A stretch of DNA of 45,475 nt from Atribacterota bacterium (GTDB lineage Bacteria; Atribacterota; Atribacteria; Atribacterales; Caldatribacteriaceae): assembly GCA_039638595.1 (NCBI GenBank), contig JBDIWM010000012.1, forward strand, positions 1-45,475, given 5' to 3'. The stretch's first letter is position 1; each line of letters starts with the position of its first letter. The notes below the pieces were generated by a model, which saw only the letters and a program-made list of their open reading frames with translations, ran no database searches and had not been told where the DNA came from. Positions 3,463 to 25,915 of the stretch are shown in pieces. A program made the position numbers and the translations under genes.

Positions 3463-4767
3463 ATGTTTTGGCCAAAACGGATTGGTGAACTGAACCGGGG
3501 TACTGGCGTGGTCCAAAAGTTGTCGCTCAACCTCATCGATATGGTTAAAGGTATTTCCGAATGTGTGGATCTGGTCAATCCGGCCTTTTCCAAACACCAC
3601 GCAAAGGTAGCTTACATTGCCCTGAATATTGCGCAAAGCATGAACCTGCCTTTGGATGAAAAGCGGGATCTGGTTATCGCGAGCCTTCTCCATGACGTGG
3701 GTGCACTTTCGACCGAGGAAAGACTGCAATATTTAGCTTTTGAAGCCGATTTTGAATTCAACAATCCTCACGGACATGCAGCAACAGGGCATCACCTTTT
3801 CAAACAATTTGAACCCTTCTTTGGCCCAGCGTTACTCATCAAGCACCATCATACCTACTATAGGGATATGGAGAGAAACACCGTTCCCTCTGGAGCGTGC
3901 ATTCTTCAATTGGCTGATCGGGTAGCGGTATTGGCCAAAAGTGGCGATGAGATTCCGGTGCGGGAAATAGAGAGCAAAGTGTATGCCCAGCGGACCAGAA
4001 TGTTTCACCCTGATGTCGTCGATGTATTTCTGGATATTTCTCAAAGTGCACATTTCTGGCCTGGTATGGAGCGTGTACCGTTGGATGTACTCGTCGAGGA
4101 GAATGGTTTGGATACCACGGTGGATATGGACTTAGAGGAATTACGTTCTTTTGCCTCTATCCTTCATGTCATTATCGATTTTCGGAGTCGATTCACCGCT
4201 TGGCACTCGTGTGGAGTTGCCGGGGTTGCGGTCGAGCTGGCCAGGCATTTTGGTTTTTCAGAAGAATCGCTCAAACTCATGGAAATCGCGGGTAATCTCC
4301 ATGATCTTGGTAAGGTCGCCATTCCCATAGAGATTTTGGAAAAACCCGATACCCTAACTGAAGAAGAATTCACCTTGGTTAAGAGTCATGCGTACTATAC
4401 CTACCGGGTTCTTCAACAAATCAAGGACTTGGAAACGATCACTATTTGGGGTTCTTTCCATCATGAAAAACTGGACGGAAGTGGGTATCCCTTTAGCCTT
4501 AAAGGAGAAGATTTGCCGCTGGGATCGAGAATTATGGCGGTATCTGATATATTTAGCGCTTTAACCGAGGATCGTCCTTATCGGAGCGGGTTAAGCGTAA
4601 GTGATGCACTCGGATACATCAAAGGCCTGGTTGGGGATGACAAAATCGACAAAAACGTCTTTTCAGTCCTGGAGGCAGAAAGCGACTACATCGTAGAAAA
4701 GCTCTCTTCCATAAAGGAAGAAAGTATAAAGAGGTTTGATGCTTTTTATTCTGACGTGGAGGTGTAG
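3463..4767 (+). CDS. Tandem HD / HD-GYP domain protein, probable c-di-GMP phosphodiesterase
   Basis: A soluble 434-residue protein with two HD modules. The N-terminal one has H45/H46, the HD pair at 77-78 and a triple His at 128-130. The C-terminal one is a full HD-GYP domain: HDLGK (280-284), HHEKLDGSGYP (333-343) and the SDIFSALTEDRPYR signature (361-374). HD-GYP proteins hydrolyse cyclic di-GMP, and the intact GYP motif argues for activity. No membrane segment is seen. An in-frame stop lies just before ATG 3463, so the start cannot be further upstream; its Shine-Dalgarno is weak. The hemerythrin gene follows three bases after the stop, which suggests that the two proteins act together as an oxygen- or NO-responsive second-messenger module. 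Confidence 0.9.
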   Translation: MFWPKRIGELNRGTGVVQKLSLNLIDMVKGISECVDLVNPAFSKHHAKVAYIALNIAQSMNLPLDEKRDLVIASLLHDVGALSTEERLQYLAFEADFEFNNPHGHAATGHHLFKQFEPFFGPALLIKHHHTYYRDMERNTVPSGACILQLADRVAVLAKSGDEIPVREIESKVYAQRTRMFHPDVVDVFLDISQSAHFWPGMERVPLDVLVEENGLDTTVDMDLEELRSFASILHVIIDFRSRFTAWHSCGVAGVAVELARHFGFSEESLKLMEIAGNLHDLGKVAIPIEILEKPDTLTEEEFTLVKSHAYYTYRVLQQIKDLETITIWGSFHHEKLDGSGYPFSLKGEDLPLGSRIMAVSDIFSALTEDRPYRSGLSVSDALGYIKGLVGDDKIDKNVFSVLEAESDYIVEKLSSIKEESIKRFDAFYSDVEV

Positions 4768-4770
4768 AAT

Positions 4771-5169
4771 ATGCCGTTACTGTGGAACGATTCGTTACTG
4801 ACTGGAGTTAGCATTGTCGATGACCAACACAGGGAACTTTTTAGGAGAATCAATGAACTTCTAGACTCTGCAGGAAAGGGTCGAGAAAAGGTACGGGAAA
4901 TCACCACCTTTTTGCAAAACTATATCATCACGCACTTCGAAACGGAACAGAAGCTCATGGTCAAGTCTCACTACCCTGACTATGAAAACCACAAACACTC
5001 CCATGATCAGTACTCGCAAGAGTTCAAAACGTTGAAAGAGGGTATCGACCAGGAGGGGGCCAGTCTGAGCCTGACCGTTAAAATGAATAACCTCTTGATT
5101 GATTGGTGGATTAACCACATCAATCGAGTTGACAAAAAAATGGCTGAATTCATCCGGGATAAGATATAG
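4771..5169 (+). CDS. Bacteriohemerythrin
   Basis: A single-domain, 132-residue four-helix-bundle protein with a non-heme di-iron O2-binding site. All seven expected ligands are in place: H20 (DDQH), H55 and E59 (HFETE), H74 and H78 (HKHSH), H116 and D121 (HINRVD). The length is typical. An AGGAGGT-like sequence (GTGGAGGTG at the end of the preceding gene) sits before the ATG, and the genes are only three bases apart, so they are co-translated. In an anaerobe it may scavenge or sense O2 or NO. Its coupling to the HD-GYP protein suggests that it feeds redox information to c-di-GMP turnover; that link is inference. Confidence 0.93.
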   Translation: MPLLWNDSLLTGVSIVDDQHRELFRRINELLDSAGKGREKVREITTFLQNYIITHFETEQKLMVKSHYPDYENHKHSHDQYSQEFKTLKEGIDQEGASLSLTVKMNNLLIDWWINHINRVDKKMAEFIRDKI

Positions 5170-5316
5170 GTCATCACATCTTTGCCTCTGGGGGAAAGCG
5201 ACTGAGTATACCATAAACCACTCCGGGTTTTCTTTCTTTGGAGTGCCTCGGTAGTAACTTCATTGATGCGCGGTGGTTATGGAGATCCTTCCCGTAGCGG
5301 AGGGAGAGTTTTCGGA

Positions 5317-5781
5317 TTAATCCCATCTGTATGCTTGAGGAGTACCCCAGAGCTCTACACGCCGATACTTTGGGTGTGGGGCTTGGAAATGGACGAGAAT
5401 GGGCGCATGGTCCAAATCTGAATGCTCTTCGAAAAACAACCGGTCGCCGAAACGGATTGTTTCTAGGACTAAAGGCAACTCCCGGCGGAATATGGCATCC
5501 CTTAGGGCTAAGGAACCGAAAACCAGCCCTCCGCCTACGTGGCAGTAGAGATGGAGGGCCAAGCCTTCCAAGTCCTGTAACCATTCTCCCAGCACTTCGT
5601 CACGCATGAATTTACTCTTGAGGGAAGAAAGCGCTTTATGGTTGTACTCCTTTCCTATGGTGAGGAAAAGGTCTCCGGTGGCATCAGAGTGGGTCAAGGT
5701 GTAGCGACGGGGCAGAACTGGTTCCCTTTCGGTCACGCCGATGAAGCGGACATGGAGTTTCTCTGTTCGGAGTCGCCCCAT
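5317..5781 (-). CDS. Staygreen (SGR / Mg-dechelatase) family protein
   Basis: A 154-residue soluble protein whose core RRYTLTHSDATGDLFLTIG followed by YN and the later CHVGGG segment is the signature of the staygreen family. The plant proteins extract Mg from chlorophyll a; some homologues from non-photosynthetic bacteria are reported to have the same activity in vitro, but their native substrate is unknown. The gene starts five bases after the stop of the MFS transporter with no strong SD of its own, indicating coupling. As the third gene of the uvsE operon, it has nothing to do with photosynthesis genes in view. Family assignment is fairly firm; the in vivo role is open. Confidence 0.82.
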   Translation of the reverse strand: MGRLRTEKLHVRFIGVTEREPVLPRRYTLTHSDATGDLFLTIGKEYNHKALSSLKSKFMRDEVLGEWLQDLEGLALHLYCHVGGGLVFGSLALRDAIFRRELPLVLETIRFGDRLFFEEHSDLDHAPILVHFQAPHPKYRRVELWGTPQAYRWD

Positions 5782-5786
5782 GGTTT

Positions 5787-6995
5787 TTATCTCTGTGCTT
5801 CTGGGCAGGCTACATCTGGGACAAAGAGGACTCGCCGCCAGCTATAGTAGGCAAGCCAACCCATTATCACTGCTCCCAATGCTCCAGGTGCTACGGTTCC
5901 AACTCGACCCAGGAGAAATCCCCCGATGGTGGGAGAGAGAACTCGGGTTAAGCTCCCCAGTGCTGCGGAGAGACCGAGGGTACCTCCCACCTCTTCCGGC
6001 CACACTGAACGGGTGAGAGCGCTGTTGATGGCGATCCTCACGGTACCTCCGGCCAAAGATAGGGGGACAAGTACCAGGAGTAACCAGGGCAAAGAAGGGG
6101 TCAGGGCCCAGCTGAGGAGTGAGAGGGCCAAAAGCACGCTTCCACCAAAAATCATCTGTTTGTCGGTGAGTCGCCGAGTGAGAAACCGAATGCCCACGCC
6201 CTGCACCACGACCACCAGAATCCCCACATAGGTGAACACATAGCTTGTGGTTCGGGCATCAAGACCCAGACGAGCGCGGGCAAAAAGAGCAAAAGCCGTC
6301 TCAAAAATGGTGAAAGCTAAACTATAGAGAAGCTGGACCTGTAAAAGCGGTCCTACACAGGGTAATCGCAGGGCTTCCCAAAGGGCTTTGAGGGAAAAAG
6401 ACGCTCGGGGTTCCTGAGCCCGTCGTTTTCGCTCTTCCTGGGGCAGCGACTCCGGGAGCCAGAGGAATACGCCGATAAGGTTAAGGAGCGAGAGACCCGC
6501 TGCCCAGAGAGCTGGTCGAGCATAGTTTTCCCCGAAAGAGAGAACCCCTCCCAGGAAGGGGCCAAAGATGAAACCCAGACCAAACGCCGCGCCGAGTAAC
6601 CCAAACCCTTGCGTGCGTTCCCTGTCCTGGGTAACATCGCTCACGTAGGCCTGGGCCAAAGAGATATTCCCTCCAAAGAGACCATCCACGATGCGGCTGA
6701 GGAAAATCATCCGCAATGAGCGAGCCAAACCCAGTAAGAGAAACCCAATCACCGTGGAGGCAAGGGAGAGAAGAAGAAGCGGTTTTCGCCCAAAACGGTC
6801 GGAAAGGCGACCGATGATTGGGGTTCCTACAAGTTGCGCGAAAGCATTGGCCCCTAAGATGAGCCCCACCACTTCAGCAGTCGCCCCAAACGTGGTGGCG
6901 TAGTAGGGTAAGAGGGGTAAGATCAGGCTGAAACCCAGTACGTCTACAAAAACAAAAAGCGTAATGAGCACCAGCGGGAGTTTTTCTCGTTTCAT
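5787..6995 (-). CDS. Major facilitator superfamily transporter, TetA-like drug/proton antiporter family
   Basis: A 402-residue integral membrane protein with 12 predicted helices. The hallmark loop 2-3 motif A is present (GRLSDRFGRKP, about residues 62-72), the motif C-like glycine-rich helix (GAAFGLGFIFGPFLGG) lies in TM5, and a central cytoplasmic loop is rich in charged residues (LPQEERKRRAQEPR). These features fit the DHA1 drug:H+ antiporter group (TetA/Bcr type). The ATG overlaps the uvsE stop (ATGA), with AGGAGG seven bases upstream inside uvsE. The substrate is unknown; its place between a UV-repair nuclease and a staygreen-like protein could mean export of a toxic pigment or photoproduct, but that is speculative. 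Confidence 0.88.
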   Translation of the reverse strand: MKREKLPLVLITLFVFVDVLGFSLILPLLPYYATTFGATAEVVGLILGANAFAQLVGTPIIGRLSDRFGRKPLLLLSLASTVIGFLLLGLARSLRMIFLSRIVDGLFGGNISLAQAYVSDVTQDRERTQGFGLLGAAFGLGFIFGPFLGGVLSFGENYARPALWAAGLSLLNLIGVFLWLPESLPQEERKRRAQEPRASFSLKALWEALRLPCVGPLLQVQLLYSLAFTIFETAFALFARARLGLDARTTSYVFTYVGILVVVVQGVGIRFLTRRLTDKQMIFGGSVLLALSLLSWALTPSLPWLLLVLVPLSLAGGTVRIAINSALTRSVWPEEVGGTLGLSAALGSLTRVLSPTIGGFLLGRVGTVAPGALGAVIMGWLAYYSWRRVLFVPDVACPEAQR

Positions 6996-7927
6996 AACTC
7001 TTCCTCCTTTTTGGATATGTCCCGAAACTGAGTGACAAGGCGTTCATCGCCGAAGGATCGGGCGATCGCTAACGCCTGGAGAGCGCTTTGCTCCTTGTCT
7101 TTGATCTCTAACATTAAATCGAAGTCGTAAGGATGGCTTTCTTCCAAAAACCTTTGGAAATCGGCTTCATCCAGAGTGAGGGCATGACGTCCCGTGCGAC
7201 CTGCAAAAAGTGGAGACGAGTAGTCCACGATGGGGATGCCATCGCCTTCTTTCCAGGTTTTAGAGGCCGCTTCAAGTGCTTTCGAAAAGGAGTGATGGTC
7301 GGGGTTCAAGCGCCAGTGGAGCACGTCGAACACCACCGGCACCCCCAGAACGGCACTCACAGAGAGGCAATCGTCCAAGGTGTAGAGTCGTTCGTCGTGT
7401 TCCACCACCAACCGTTCCTGAATGGTTGGGTCTAAGGAACGGAATGTTTCGATAAAACGGCTTAAAGCGGCCTTCTTATTCCCGTACTGTCCTCCTAAGT
7501 GGATTTGAATTTTGGCCGTTTGGTCGAAGCCCATCAGGTTCAAAACCCGATTGTGATAAACAAGGTCGGCGATGGCTGCTTCCACCGTTTCTCTCCTGGG
7601 AGAGTTTAAAACGGTGTACTGCCCTGGGTGCATGGAAATGCGCATACCGTAAAGACGAACCAGGGTTCCAACTCGGCTGAACGTTTCGGCGAATTCCTCT
7701 TCCCAGGGATACCGATTCCTGGGATGGGAGGCAAGAGGAACGAGGTCAGAGGTGATACGTAAAAAAAGGAGTCCCCGCTGGGCGTTCCAGCGGATGATTT
7801 CCTCAAGGCAGGCTAAATTCTGAGCCACCGTCTCCCGCAAGCGCTCCCAGGAGAGGGAGGCTAACCGAAAGGTTCGGTCAGGGCGGCAGGAAAGACCCAG
7901 ATTGATACAGGGATAACCGATGCGCAT
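6992..7927 (-). CDS. uvsE: UV DNA damage endonuclease UvsE
   Basis: A TIM-barrel, metal-dependent endonuclease that nicks DNA 5' to cyclobutane dimers and 6-4 photoproducts, giving an alternative to UvrABC. From ATG 7927 the 311-residue product begins MRIGYPCINLGLSC, the characteristic family N-terminus. It continues with the conserved LFLRITSDLVP, HPGQY, HLGGQYGNK, ERLVVEHDER and VVFDVLHW segments that supply metal ligands. A longer frame to 8005 exists, but AAGGAG lies correctly before 7927 and the extra 26 residues are low-complexity and charged. It is first gene of a three-gene operon; the transcript probably starts near 8077 (promoter 8084-8112). Confidence 0.95.
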   Translation of the reverse strand: MRIGYPCINLGLSCRPDRTFRLASLSWERLRETVAQNLACLEEIIRWNAQRGLLFLRITSDLVPLASHPRNRYPWEEEFAETFSRVGTLVRLYGMRISMHPGQYTVLNSPRRETVEAAIADLVYHNRVLNLMGFDQTAKIQIHLGGQYGNKKAALSRFIETFRSLDPTIQERLVVEHDERLYTLDDCLSVSAVLGVPVVFDVLHWRLNPDHHSFSKALEAASKTWKEGDGIPIVDYSSPLFAGRTGRHALTLDEADFQRFLEESHPYDFDLMLEIKDKEQSALQALAIARSFGDERLVTQFRDISKKEEEL

Positions 7928-8410
7928 CGGGTTCTCCGCTCCTTCTACCCTCTTTTCACTATCCCTCTTTCTGTCTTGTCTCTTCCCAAATTGTCTTTCG
8001 CCCAAAGCCCTGTTTCCTTGAGTTCCCGCATGGGCTTCGTTCCCCGACTGGCCTGGTCCTTACTGGAGTAAGGTCCACCCTTTATTGTAGATAACAGGGT
8101 TAAAAAACACAATGACCTTCTGGGGTCTTGAGGATGGTGGAGGATGGCTTTTGATAGCCGAGCGGATACGATGAGAGTGGATAATCACATACCCCAGTGA
8201 GAACGCAAAAACTCCAAAATAGGCACACGGGGTTCTCCAGAAAGGGAATTCCAGGTGGTTTGACTTGGTCCACACCGTTTACGATCTTGTTTTCCTTAGC
8301 CGGAAACCCGCAAGTGTTTTTGCCAATGCGTACCGTTTGAGGGTGCCCTGAGGCCTTCTCAATACGTGTAGGAAGAGCACGAAAAAAAAGAGTGTATGCG
8401 GTCGCTTTAA
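7928..8410. other. Long uvsE leader and intergenic DNA
   Basis: Apart from the promoter/operator at 8055-8112 I see no gene. The leader between the expected transcription start and uvsE is about 150 bases. A 71-codon minus-strand frame inside 8060-8275 has no SD and no recognisable features, and it spans the promoter, so I do not call it. Confidence 0.5.
8055..8112 (-). promoter_or_regulatory. Promoter and operator-like repeat of the uvsE operon
   Basis: Minus-strand TTGTGT (8112-8107) and TACAAT (8089-8084) are 17 bases apart. Immediately after the expected transcription start is an imperfect inverted repeat, arms GGTCCTTACT (8055-8064) and AGTAAGGTCC (8067-8076), with one mismatch. Its position is ideal for a repressor. 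It does not resemble a Gram-positive LexA box. Confidence 0.6.
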
Positions 8411-8442
8411 TGAAAAAGCCAAGCCCTGTAGGGCTTGGCTTT
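8411..8442 (-). terminator. Intrinsic terminator of the LacI-SBP/ABC/dehydrogenase operon
   Basis: A perfect 12-bp stem (AAAGCCAAGCCC, loop of four, complement at 8431-8442) is followed on the minus strand by TTTTT. It lies 26 bases beyond the last gene of the operon. Confidence 0.88.
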
Positions 8443-8467
8443 AAAGATCTTTGCTTTTAGGAATTCA

Positions 8468-9385
8468 TCAAACACCCACTTTTTTGAGTATCCCATCCAC
8501 GAACTGCTTGGCCCGGGGAACATCGGCTTCATCAAGGTGCTCGATAATTAGGGGGATATTGGGATGATTTTTACTCAATCTTCCGAGGTAGAGTTCGTAG
8601 TTGAGGATGCCTAGTCCGGGAGCTGGTAACTCCACCGCCCCCGCACCTCGGAAGGTGTGAGATTCTGGAGCATCCAGTGCAGCGTGTTTCTCCTCAAGGA
8701 TTTCGGCCTTCTTGATGTCTTTGGCATGGGCAATCTTCACCTTGTTTTGAAAGATGTCCACAAGGTCCATGATCCGGTTGAGAGTACCGTCGACATCTTG
8801 AATGGTGCATTCATCGAAAAAGTTGGTGGGGTCTAAAAGCATTCCCAAGCCAGGGTGATAACCAATGTCAGCGAAAAGTCGTATGACTTCATCGATGGAT
8901 CCAATGACGTTGTTGACGTAATTTTCCACCAGAAAAACAGCTCCAGAATCGTAGGCGAGTTGCGCAAGTTCGAGGATTATTCCCCGTGCTTCCTCGTATC
9001 CTTCTTCAGTTTTGTTTTTGGGATGGTGTACCCAGTCACTCTCTGGATTAAACGTTCCGGTTTCACTGACCACGTACGGTGAACCAAGGTCACGAGCGTG
9101 ACGTATCAGGGTTTTTAAGTAGGCGAGGCGTTTCTCTCGTTCTTTGGGATCGGGATGGACGATATTGGTGTACCCTGAAACCACGCAAATCGGTAAATTT
9201 GCCTCTCGAAAGGCATCACGAATCCGCCAGCACTTTTCCCTGGTAATGGCCTCCGGAGTGGAAAAGTCAAAATCCCGGAAAGTGAGGTCGAGCTGAACGG
9301 TGGTGAAGCCCAGCTCTTTAATGCGTTGGATGGTTTGGTGGAGCGAATAAGGAAAGTACCCGTTGAAAATACCCACGTGAATCAT
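8468..9385 (-). CDS. Sugar phosphate isomerase/epimerase-like TIM-barrel protein
   Basis: A 305-residue protein of the xylose-isomerase-like/AP-endonuclease-2 superfamily (IolE/IolI, hexulose epimerase relatives). It has alternating beta-alpha units starting with MIHVGIFNGYFP, and candidate metal ligands in VENYVNN (E), DPTNFFD (D), IAHAKDI (H) and LIIEHLDE (E). ATG 9385 has GGAGGT seven bases upstream; an upstream GTG at 9394 is too close to the SD. It is last gene of the operon, directly after a Gfo/Idh/MocA dehydrogenase. That pairing is typical of inositol-like or keto-sugar catabolism, where the dehydrogenase makes a keto-sugar and this enzyme isomerises or dehydrates it. The exact substrate cannot be read from the sequence. 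Confidence 0.85.
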   Translation of the reverse strand: MIHVGIFNGYFPYSLHQTIQRIKELGFTTVQLDLTFRDFDFSTPEAITREKCWRIRDAFREANLPICVVSGYTNIVHPDPKEREKRLAYLKTLIRHARDLGSPYVVSETGTFNPESDWVHHPKNKTEEGYEEARGIILELAQLAYDSGAVFLVENYVNNVIGSIDEVIRLFADIGYHPGLGMLLDPTNFFDECTIQDVDGTLNRIMDLVDIFQNKVKIAHAKDIKKAEILEEKHAALDAPESHTFRGAGAVELPAPGLGILNYELYLGRLSKNHPNIPLIIEHLDEADVPRAKQFVDGILKKVGV

Positions 9386-9403
9386 CAATATCACCTCCGA
9401 AAT

Positions 9404-10512: not shown

Positions 10513-11775
10513 CTATCGGTACTCGGCTACCGTTTCAAAAAGTGCCAAAAGATTTTCGACTGGAATGTTCGCCTGGATGTTGTGGACACTGGCGAACACG
10601 AATCCTCCCCCTTTTTTGAAAATTTCGATGAGTCGTCGAGCTTCGTTTCGTACTTCTTCAGGTGTTCCAAAGGGGAGAGTGGTTTGCGTGTTGATTCCTC
10701 CACCCCAGAAGGTAAAGTGGTGCCCAAACTCGCGCTTTAGGATTTCTGGGTTCATTGAAGCAGCCGAAATTTGTACTGGGTTGAGGATGTCGAATCCGGC
10801 TTCCATGAGGTCTGGAAGGAGGTCATATACCGCTCCGCAGGTGTGGATGAACGTCTTCCAGGTAGTGTGTTCATGGACCCAGGCGTTGATCTTGGTGTGG
10901 AAAGGTTTAAACAGAGCTTGGTAAAGTTTGGGAGAGATGAAGGACGCGTGTTGTGACCCGAAATCAGCTCCAGATATGACGATTACCTGTATTCGTTCTC
11001 CCACCGCCTGGTGGAACGTTTCGAGGTTTTTGAGACCAATTTCGGTCATGCGAGCAAAAACCTCCTGGAGAAATGCTTGACGGCTCACCAAGGAAATGTA
11101 CCATTCTTCGATGTCACGAATACCCTTGGGTGCTTTCAGGGAGGGTCCAGGAACGAAGGCGATATCTCCCAAATTGGTGCCAGGAACACCTGAAGAAACG
11201 ATCGCATACTCAGTTTCTTCAAAAAGTCGTCGGGATTCGTTCTCAAAGTAGGAGAGTTCCTCTTCGGTAAGAAGGTTGTACTCCTCAATTTGGTCTTCGA
11301 CGCGGAGATTAGTTTCGTCAAATGGTTCCTGGCGAATCAGGGCATCGTGGTAAAATCCTCCTTTGGGCATTTTGGCACATGGAGCACATGACATATCTCC
11401 CTGAGGATACTGACAGATGTCTCCATGGGCTTCAGGAACGGTGTTGAACTTTTCAGGGACCAAGAGGGGAGTGCCATCGAAAAATGTCCAGGGCTTCCAA
11501 TTTTCATTCCGGTACCCAAAAAAATTTGCCTGGGGCATTAACGGCACGGTGTCAATCCCTAAAACTTCGCGCAGGGCGTTGTCCACTTCACCTAACATTT
11601 GGTACGGGTCGACGACTTTGACGGGGTCCTCGGGAGCGATGAGTCCTAAGGCCACTTTTATTTTATGCAGGCTTGAAACGTGGATACCAGTAATCATCGT
11701 CGATCCTAAATCAACGGGTAACTTGTCGGTTTCCTCGTGGTTAAGCGCTCTTATGATCCTTTCTCTTGGTTTCAT
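10513..11775 (-). CDS. Uroporphyrinogen decarboxylase-fold methyltransferase-like protein (copy 1)
   Basis: A 420-residue protein of the UroD/MtaA superfamily, which includes corrinoid-dependent methyltransferases as well as heme-pathway UroD. It opens MKPRERIIRALNHEETDKLPVD, the usual family start. It carries IHTCGAVYDLLPDL (His-x-Cys, two of the zinc ligands of the methyltransferase branch), followed by GFDILNPVQ and FWGGGINTQ. The heme-pathway decarboxylase would not be expected in a sugar operon, and the HxC motif supports a zinc methyltransferase-like or unknown role. The SD (GGAGGAGG) is about 14 bases upstream. A second family member sits in the divergent operon (22423-23604). Confidence 0.82.
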   Translation of the reverse strand: MKPRERIIRALNHEETDKLPVDLGSTMITGIHVSSLHKIKVALGLIAPEDPVKVVDPYQMLGEVDNALREVLGIDTVPLMPQANFFGYRNENWKPWTFFDGTPLLVPEKFNTVPEAHGDICQYPQGDMSCAPCAKMPKGGFYHDALIRQEPFDETNLRVEDQIEEYNLLTEEELSYFENESRRLFEETEYAIVSSGVPGTNLGDIAFVPGPSLKAPKGIRDIEEWYISLVSRQAFLQEVFARMTEIGLKNLETFHQAVGERIQVIVISGADFGSQHASFISPKLYQALFKPFHTKINAWVHEHTTWKTFIHTCGAVYDLLPDLMEAGFDILNPVQISAASMNPEILKREFGHHFTFWGGGINTQTTLPFGTPEEVRNEARRLIEIFKKGGGFVFASVHNIQANIPVENLLALFETVAEYR

Positions 11776-23922: not shown

Positions 23923-24684
23923 TCACAGGAAGGGGAATGGGTTTTTGGGCCAGAATTCGGTTAGAAATGGTCTGACTCGAAGAGGTAACCTCATCCGTTG
24001 TCGGGAATGGCTTTTCCGTTCGGGAACGGCGATTTCGGTGATGTATGCTTGCCAGAGGGTTAAAAAAGGGTCTTCTCCAGGGGATGGGTCGAGTTGTATG
24101 GCGTCCACCCACAGTAGGGCGGTTTGCTTGTCTTGAAAGGAAAAGAGGAGCCTTCGTCGGGAGTCGAAAATGAGAAAATTTTCGTTGGGGAAACGGCGGA
24201 CAAAGTGCTGATAAAGCCGGGGAAGGACGTTTAAAGACGGTTCGAAACGGGCAAAGAGAAAACGATTCTTGAGTTCCACAAACCGCAGAAGCCCCAACCA
24301 GCGGTGATGCTCACGATGGAAGGCTCTTTCGGCCCGGTAAAGATGGAGGACATGTTCATTGGTCAGGTCTTTCCAGACCTGAGGTTGTTGTACGCTCTCT
24401 CTGAGAAGCCGAACGAGGGAAATTTCCACCAGGGCTTGGTCACAGAGGTAAAAGAGCGGAAGTTTGAGGAAGATTTCTCGGGGCAGCATGACCTTAAGCT
24501 GTCTATAGAACTCCTGCGCCAGTTGAGGTTGAGTGGTGGTGGGTTCAGCAAAGAAGTCACCGTTCTCTGGGTTAAGTCGTTCGTTCACTACCTGTAATCC
24601 TTCCAGGGACCGTTCCCTCGGGAAAAGAGTGGCCAGAAGGGTCAAGAATCCTTCAAATGTCCCATCATAGGTGACCACTGACAT
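23923..24684 (-). CDS. DUF4130 / TIGR03915-type DNA-metabolism protein
   Basis: A 253-residue protein starting MSVVTYDGTFEGFLTLLATL, the family hallmark. It contains the typical LTNEHVLHLYRAERAFHREHHRWLGLLRF region, the FARFEP segment and FPNENFLIFDSRRR. Family members are nearly always next to a radical-SAM partner and are often fused to, or adjacent to, a family-4 uracil-DNA glycosylase. The biochemical activity is unknown. ATG 24684 overlaps the end of the radical-SAM gene by 20 bases, so translation is coupled. No glycosylase domain is present in this copy. Confidence 0.85.
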   Translation of the reverse strand: MSVVTYDGTFEGFLTLLATLFPRERSLEGLQVVNERLNPENGDFFAEPTTTQPQLAQEFYRQLKVMLPREIFLKLPLFYLCDQALVEISLVRLLRESVQQPQVWKDLTNEHVLHLYRAERAFHREHHRWLGLLRFVELKNRFLFARFEPSLNVLPRLYQHFVRRFPNENFLIFDSRRRLLFSFQDKQTALLWVDAIQLDPSPGEDPFLTLWQAYITEIAVPERKSHSRQRMRLPLRVRPFLTEFWPKNPFPFL

Positions 24685-25915
24685 GGGGTATTTCCATAAG
24701 TTCCGGGAAAAGCGAGAGTTGCCGCGTTTCCAGGGCTTTTCTTCGTGAACCAGAGAGCGTGACAAGGGGTTTTCCTCGTAGAGTGAGGAAGTAACGTGCT
24801 CGCTTGAGAACCACCCCAAGCTTTTGCAATACCCCTTCCGAGAGGGTTCCGTAACGGCGAGCCTGAAGGATTCGTTTCCCTGAAACTGGGCCAATTCCCG
24901 GCACCCGAATGAGCTTTTGGTACGAAGCGGTGGTCACTTCAACCGGAAAGAGTTCCGGGTGCCTCAGGGCCCAGGCTATTTTGGGATCCGTATCAAGGGA
25001 GAGATATTCTCCCTCTTCGAAGAGGTCCTCCGTGGTGAATCCGTAAAATCGAAGAAGCCAATCCGCCTGGTAGAGTCGATGTTCACGCAAGAAAGGTGGT
25101 TCAACCAGGGCTGGAAGGGTCTCGTCCTGATTAACCGGGATGTAGGCAGAGTAGTAGACCCGTCGAACGAAGCGCTTATGATAGAGGACTTCTGCGAAGG
25201 AGAGCATGGTTCTGTCGGTATCTGGTGTGGCTCCCACGATCATCTGGGTCGACGCTGGAGCTTTACGGGTCCGCTCTCGGTAAATTTCTCGCACAATCTG
25301 CAGGGGCCTGTAGAGCTCAGGAAGCGTTTTTTGAGGGCTCAGTCGTCTCAGTGAGGTTTCGGTCGGAAACTCGATATTGGTACTCACCCGGTCGGCGAGG
25401 AGAAAGGCTTCCTCGATGAGTTCCCGGGACGTTCCAGGGATGAGTTTGAGGTGGATGTAGCCGTGGAACCGGTACGCCTGGCGCAAAATTTTGACTGCCC
25501 GAATCATCAGCTCCATGGTTGCATCGGGGTGTCGGTGCATTCCGGAACTCAAGAAAAGACCCTCGATGTAGTTGCGGCGGTAGAATTCAACCGTGATGGT
25601 GGCAATTTCTTCAGGGGTAAGCATGGCTCGGGGGACGTCGTTAGAAACCCGGTTGAGGCAGTATTTACAGTCATTGACACAGAAGTTCGTCATGAGGATT
25701 TTGAGAAGCGACACGCACCGTCCATCCGCAGAGAACGTATGGCATATTCCGCTGAGGTGCGAGTTTCCCAATCCGTAAGGATGGGTTTCTCGCCTTCCTC
25801 CAGAACTACTGCAGGAGTTATCGTAGCGAGCAGACATCGCCAGAACCGAAAGCCGGGTCAAAAGGTCACTTTTGGGTACCAAAATCAAAGGACCCTGGGA
25901 GCGCGCTTCTGCCAT
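24665..25915 (-). CDS. Putative DNA modification/repair radical SAM protein (TIGR03916-like)
   Basis: A 416-residue protein. It has a [4Fe-4S] radical-SAM motif CVNDCKYC (C79, C83, C86), upstream family residues YDNSCSSSGG and GICHTF, the conserved GLFLSSGMHRHPDATMELM, and a C-terminal helix-hairpin-helix (RVPGIGPVSGKRILQARR) that suggests DNA binding. It works with the coupled DUF4130 protein. ATG 25915 is chosen because a promoter (25934-25962) places the RNA start only about 12 bases upstream; a TTG at 25945 would lie upstream of the -10. The SD is GGGGTGGTG. Confidence 0.9.
   Translation of the reverse strand: MAEARSQGPLILVPKSDLLTRLSVLAMSARYDNSCSSSGGRRETHPYGLGNSHLSGICHTFSADGRCVSLLKILMTNFCVNDCKYCLNRVSNDVPRAMLTPEEIATITVEFYRRNYIEGLFLSSGMHRHPDATMELMIRAVKILRQAYRFHGYIHLKLIPGTSRELIEEAFLLADRVSTNIEFPTETSLRRLSPQKTLPELYRPLQIVREIYRERTRKAPASTQMIVGATPDTDRTMLSFAEVLYHKRFVRRVYYSAYIPVNQDETLPALVEPPFLREHRLYQADWLLRFYGFTTEDLFEEGEYLSLDTDPKIAWALRHPELFPVEVTTASYQKLIRVPGIGPVSGKRILQARRYGTLSEGVLQKLGVVLKRARYFLTLRGKPLVTLSGSRRKALETRQLSLFPELMEIPHVSGHL

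Follow-up and report, generated by a model that had tools for sequence, protein, structure and literature searches.

Genes for Staygreen (SGR) proteins recur beside genes for heliorhodopsin and photolyase in Lokiarchaeia and Anaerolineae, and SGRs of the family that includes AbSGR-h and the homologue described here very probably belong to light- and UV-stress gene sets. This homologue is encoded on a 45,475-nucleotide stretch of DNA (the window; contig JBDIWM010000012.1, positions 1 to 45,475) from an Atribacterota genome, GCA_039638595.1, in a predicted operon with genes for the UV-damage endonuclease UvsE and an MFS transporter; that operon, too, probably belongs to such a set. In our best explanation, to which we give about an even chance, the three genes together make up a small operon for light/UV stress in which SGR would demetallate a photosensitising tetrapyrrole and the MFS transporter would act in export.

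Genes and borders of the predicted operon

All three genes lie on the reverse strand. The first, uvsE (6992–7927; PF03851, 4.1e-59), encodes a protein of 311 aa that passes the TIGR00629 equivalog model of NCBIfam (195 bits, cut-off 124.45); its open reading frame starts with an ATG at 7927, and an alternative TTG start lies at 8005. It overlaps by 4 bases the gene for a 402-aa MFS transporter of the drug:H+ antiporter type (5787–6995; PF07690 (MFS_1), 4.9e-51), which is followed after a 5-base gap by the gene for the 154-aa SGR, a Mg-dechelatase homologue (5317–5781; PF12638, 1.2e-46). Open reading frames and Pfam and NCBIfam scans confirmed the coordinates, strand and families given in a preliminary description of this DNA, as well as the close spacing that it had noted. 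The best NCBIfam matches of the MFS protein are TetA-group tetracycline exporters, all far under their cut-offs; assignment as a tetracycline exporter was rejected (NF012174, 184 bits against a cut-off of 475), leaving a general MFS_1 member.

AAGGAG- and AGGAGG-like ribosome sites, read by eye, precede uvsE and the MFS gene. The single promoter that had been proposed for the three genes was not recovered, a sigma-70 scan of 5100–8500 giving no sigma-70-like match; uvsE, MFS and SGR are presumably co-transcribed. A stem-loop with a T-run (8417–8450, reverse strand, found by direct sequence reading) lies 3′ of the upstream gene (8468–9394) and likely separates it from the operon. On the SGR side, the border is formed by a convergent hemerythrin gene (4771–5169, forward strand) that ends at 5169; an HD-domain gene (3463–4767, forward strand) is likewise convergent with the operon, and this order is kept in the sister genome. 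Farther away, a URO-D-family methyltransferase gene (10513–11775, reverse strand), MtaA/CmuA-like but below cut-offs and in a sugar-metabolism setting, is no evidence for porphyrin metabolism.

The SGR protein and its catalytic residues

The window SGR matches the Pfam Staygreen profile with 158.7 bits (cut-off 27) over positions 2–146 of 147, and is 51% identical over its whole length to AbSGR-h (crystal structure PDB 7Y5Y; 1.4e-48). In the alignment, its residues H31, D33 and D61 correspond to the catalytic H32, D34 and D62 of AbSGR-h. That protein is an active Mg-dechelatase whose activity is lost in the D34N and D62N mutants and reduced by H32A (PMC8531759). By this homology, the window SGR is a predicted Mg-dechelatase. 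The full H/D/D triad is present in 50–51 of 56 aligned rows; one row (L030) is incomplete at the first two positions, and the triad is missing from the Priestia and C. difficile proteins and from two divergent Chloroflexota copies (L058 and L059, in genomes G203 and G236). These non-HDD Staygreen proteins (L058, L059, L090 and L091, the Priestia and C. difficile proteins included), which read QGD, QGD, PQN and YED, probably have another function.

The locus in a sister genome

SGR is rare in the phylum, occurring in 2 of 50 genomes, that of the window (G000) and a sister (G003). In the sister, the MFS, SGR, hemerythrin, HD and MCP genes stand in the window order, with identical adjacency and spacing of MFS and SGR, on a 6.8 kb contig for which mis-binning is possible. 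Upstream of MFS, only a uvsE remnant is found (41% over 56 residues, with stops); an intact uvsE lies on a different contig. Past the remnant, the sister contig holds the 3′ end of a TIGR03915 DNA-repair gene, and blastn aligned positions 6709–6831 of this locus (L004) with 23935–24057 of the window (75.6%, 1e-18). In the window, the gene for the TIGR03915 putative DNA-repair protein (23923–24894, reverse strand; 165.7 bits) is accompanied by that for its partner, the putative DNA modification/repair radical SAM protein TIGR03916 (24665–25945, reverse strand; 522 bits, cut-off 343.5). Because the TIGR03915 3′ end borders the uvsE remnant in the sister, this gene would have stood next to the operon before an insertion of ~16 kb. 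Originally, uvsE, MFS and SGR probably followed directly on the repair pair; in the window, ~16 kb of other genes has since come between them.

Neighbours of SGR in other lineages

A search of genome contigs, class-wide searches and plasmid matches yielded 55 distinct SGR proteins, whose neighbours were identified by clustering followed by Pfam and NCBIfam scans. No viral SGR was confirmed in IMG/VR. Plasmid-borne Bacillota homologues (Peribacillus, Cytobacillus, Priestia and C. difficile) were treated as divergent; catalytic residues are missing in two of the four, and no light theme appears among their neighbours listed. Neighbour families of the other SGRs comprise heliorhodopsin (PF18761, 1e-100), photolyase, DUF523/DUF1722, CrtI, CrtB, lycopene-cyclase-domain proteins, a MerR regulator with B12-binding domains, MsrA, MsrB and peroxiredoxin, together with TspO-like proteins that match their family weakly (3e-6). 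The light/UV module suggested in the preliminary description gained support in its broad form, SGRs of three other lineages being found near heliorhodopsin, photolyase, DUF523/DUF1722 and carotenoid genes, and also near a B12-binding MerR regulator, MsrA/MsrB and peroxiredoxin.

A proximity test measured how far SGR lies from heliorhodopsin, photolyase, UvdE and TspO genes, located over whole genomes. Within 5 kb of SGR, heliorhodopsin was found in 11 of 38 genomes (expected 0.16; p 5e-18), photolyase in 6 of 18 (expected 0.08; p 1e-10), a TspO-like gene in 4 of 22 (expected 0.1; p 3e-6) and uvsE in 1 of 25, the window itself (expected 0.11; p 0.10); these counts are lower bounds because contigs are fragmented, and the p-values serve as guides, the null being uniform gene placement and the genomes being related. 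Redundancy was controlled by collapsing SGRs at 65% identity with random representatives, which gave about 5 of 16 for heliorhodopsin (median p 5e-9), about 3 of 11.5 for photolyase (median p 1.5e-5), about 2 of 12 for TspO (p 0.002) and, within 10 kb, about 1.9 of 10 for uvsE (p 0.004, window included).

Heliorhodopsin is carried by 39 of 46 SGR-positive genomes (window and sister left aside) versus 6 of 32 SGR-negative genomes, the latter picked in list order. The corresponding counts are 23/25 versus 5/22 in Lokiarchaeia and 11/14 versus 1/10 in Anaerolineae, and heliorhodopsin also adjoins SGR in one Bathyarchaeon. No heliorhodopsin was found in the window genome or the sister. uvsE adjoins heliorhodopsin (≤5 kb) in 8 of the 21 genomes having both, and is thereby linked to the same light theme. 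Of 47 genomes surveyed, no more than 21 have a member of the four tested light/UV/TspO families at 10 kb or less from SGR.

The neighbourhood survey proposed in the preliminary description thus gave a divided answer: linkage of staygreen genes to heliorhodopsin and photolyase recurs, but linkage to uvsE is not conserved. The two genes are 10 kb or less apart in 3 of 25 genomes having both, window counted, and in 2 of 23 when window and sister are left out (p 0.013). With this low frequency and the remnant in the sister, the uvsE–staygreen pairing fails the test of conserved association set in the preliminary description and was rejected as a general rule.

Gene order at individual loci illustrates the linkage. 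On one strand, L051 carries heliorhodopsin, a B12-binding MerR regulator, DUF1475, SGR and DUF523/DUF1722, and L050 carries CrtI, CrtB, a lycopene-cyclase-domain protein, an unassigned frame, DUF523/DUF1722, heliorhodopsin and SGR. The order is Rieske, heliorhodopsin and SGR in L052; MsrA, peroxiredoxin (other strand), SGR, MsrB, DUF523/DUF1722 and heliorhodopsin in L007; and DUF523/DUF1722, a fatty-acid-hydroxylase-family protein, CrtI, a lycopene-cyclase-domain protein and SGR in L102, where uvsE is 8 kb and a partial heliorhodopsin 10 kb away. Photolyase adjoins SGR in L022 (heliorhodopsin, a racemase-like gene named by sequence reading with no scan match, photolyase, SGR) and in L112 (SGR, photolyase, DUF523/DUF1722). 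L009, whose SGR is identical to the aligned residues of 7Y5Y, reads photolyase, SDR, NmrA-like, DegV-like (after DUF1475), TspO-like, DUF4345, DUF3159 and SGR, the NmrA-like and DegV-like names coming from sequence reading with no scan match. In its relative L008 (523–2942), uvsE and photolyase with a 4-base overlap head a series of genes on one strand that closes with SGR. Lokiarchaeal loci L011 and L020 parallel the window with photolyase, DUF523/DUF1722, MFS and SGR; the MFS gene was given no weight as support, such genes being common.

Further features of these loci were recorded. A Rieske oxygenase lies near SGR in L052 (−1949) and L017 (−3766), and its identification as pheophorbide oxygenase was rejected, the match being to VanA_C. 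In many Lokiarchaeia (L010, L011, L015, L016, L018–L022, L024, L025, L027 and others), SGR is directly followed by a same-strand gene for a class I SAM methyltransferase, at +575 from the SGR start. A second Lokiarchaeal SGR copy (L087, G068:C1:3184683-3185129) is interrupted by a TAA within its matched stretch and is possibly decaying.

In the SGR tree, the window protein and its counterpart in the sister group with two Anaerolineae SGRs encoded directly behind heliorhodopsin, those of L050 and L052 (94/79, just below the starred level). With this moderate support, the tree fits acquisition of SGR from the heliorhodopsin-linked Anaerolineae side.

Discussion

No large Mg/Co-chelatase subunit (CobN/BchH, PF02514) was found in the window genome, which is 97% complete, and PF02514 is missing in 36 of 48 SGR-positive genomes, the window genome included and one sub-threshold match counted as present. 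A Mg-tetrapyrrole made by the host through the known route is therefore unlikely, and any such compound would be exogenous. That the SGR substrate is a Mg-tetrapyrrole falls, in our estimate, just short of an even chance. In the proposed mechanism, UvsE would nick DNA at UV lesions, and SGR would strip a photosensitising tetrapyrrole, chlorophyll-type or related, of its central metal (most likely Mg2+); this tetrapyrrole would be taken up or encountered by the host, not made. The MFS pump would then export the demetallated product or another toxic compound; the metal-free tetrapyrrole may be a step toward export or breakdown. The demetallation chemistry is extrapolated from AbSGR-h, and we infer the SGR substrate, the MFS cargo and light induction of the operon. 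The suggested tetrapyrrole role is based on the conserved catalytic residues, on the activity that has been published for the homologue with 51% identity, and on TspO-like neighbours with weak family matches.

This best reading is favoured by the gene families and their spacing, the H/D/D residues, the heliorhodopsin/photolyase linkage, the lack of PF02514 and the tree position. Against it stand the uvsE–SGR pair, unkept in the sister, the lack of heliorhodopsin in the window genome and the linkage in only 21 of 47 genomes. Moreover, Mg removal alone does not end photosensitisation by chlorophyll, and a metal-free porphyrin can still sensitise, so an advantage of demetallation is not obvious, which also speaks against it.

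SGR could sit in a light-stress set and yet have as its native substrate another damaged metallo-tetrapyrrole, such as a Zn, Ni or Co form or a light-damaged corrinoid or haem precursor, with Mg removal in vitro as a side activity. We consider this rather unlikely. The broad substrate range and low specificity of AbSGR-h (PMC11006732) would agree with it, as would the B12-binding MerR regulator adjoining SGR in L051 and the missing large chelatase subunit in G000 and across the 36 of 48 genomes; however, AbSGR-h acts on chlorophyll a and its derivatives with high activity (PMC8531759, PMC11006732), and no observation points to a specific alternative substrate.

It is improbable that SGR is a scavenging enzyme that begins the breakdown of chlorophyll from phototroph detritus for Mg, phytol or nitrogen, its light/UV neighbours reflecting life near phototrophs and the MFS protein importing or exporting pigment fragments. 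Repair, carotenoid, Msr and light-sensor neighbours better fit protection, and neither a pheophytinase nor a set of genes for tetrapyrrole catabolism was seen. That most hosts are without the large chelatase subunit does suit scavenging, and so does the Rieske oxygenase near SGR in L052 and L017; in plant chlorophyll breakdown, too, a Rieske oxygenase acts after SGR, but the neighbours found here match VanA_C and not the pheophorbide oxygenase model. Very unlikely, finally, is a fortuitous or recent assembly of co-transcribed genes that share no function. The sister has lost uvsE at the locus with MFS, SGR and the outer flanks kept, and SGR is sporadic in the phylum (2/50), as such an assembly would predict; yet the sister keeps MFS and SGR adjacent with the same spacing, a DNA-repair gene (TIGR03915) borders its operon, and at other loci the proximity of SGR to photolyase or heliorhodopsin far exceeds chance.

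To our knowledge, the function of heliorhodopsin is largely open. What SGR homologues do physiologically in bacteria and archaea was described in 2021 as unknown (PMC8531759), and the AbSGR-h publications do not give its genomic context (PMC8531759, PMC11006732). The SGR enzyme family is known, but its genomic association with heliorhodopsin appears new within the limited literature searched, where no paper was found that treats heliorhodopsin together with staygreen, stay-green or chlorophyll degradation. The recurrent linkage with heliorhodopsin and photolyase in Lokiarchaeia and Anaerolineae ties the questions of SGR and heliorhodopsin roles to each other, both being testable, and gives a concrete lead to what SGR does in microbes that make no chlorophyll. 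We consider it possible rather than probable that prokaryotic SGR is a dedicated light-stress member, alongside heliorhodopsin and B12-binding MerR sensors, that demetallates photosensitising tetrapyrroles in hosts making no chlorophyll, and that the plant enzyme was recruited from it. If true, this would give non-phototrophs, Asgard archaea included, a reason to keep a chlorophyll-demetalling enzyme, and would suggest where the enzyme behind Mendel's green peas came from.

Plants use SGR in senescence. Plant STAY-GREEN (SGR/NYE1) and the window protein share the Pfam Staygreen family, a likeness at family level, whereas plants make chlorophyll and the window host has no large Mg-chelatase subunit; the chlorophyll metabolism of phototrophs differs from the window genome in the same CobN/BchH-family subunit. 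AbSGR-h, from Anaerolineae bacterium SM23_63, shares with the window SGR its family over the full length, 51% identity, H/D/D residues and a non-phototrophic host. With UvsE/UvdE alternative excision repair, the window shares a uvsE above the TIGR00629 equivalog cut-off, but differs in the SGR pairing, which the sister has lost; we know of no usual uvsE locus that carries SGR. A bacterial ancestry has been proposed for plant SGRs (Obata 2019, cited in PMC8531759). Bulzu et al. (PMC8612252), whose main text does not mention stay-green, reported carotenoid genes, photolyases and UvdE on the flanks of Znf-heliorhodopsins. The same carotenoid, photolyase and UvdE families are found here around SGR: the window has the UV-repair gene of such photoprotection clusters, uvsE (6992–7927), and heliorhodopsin itself, missing from the window genome, is present at many of its relatives' SGR loci.
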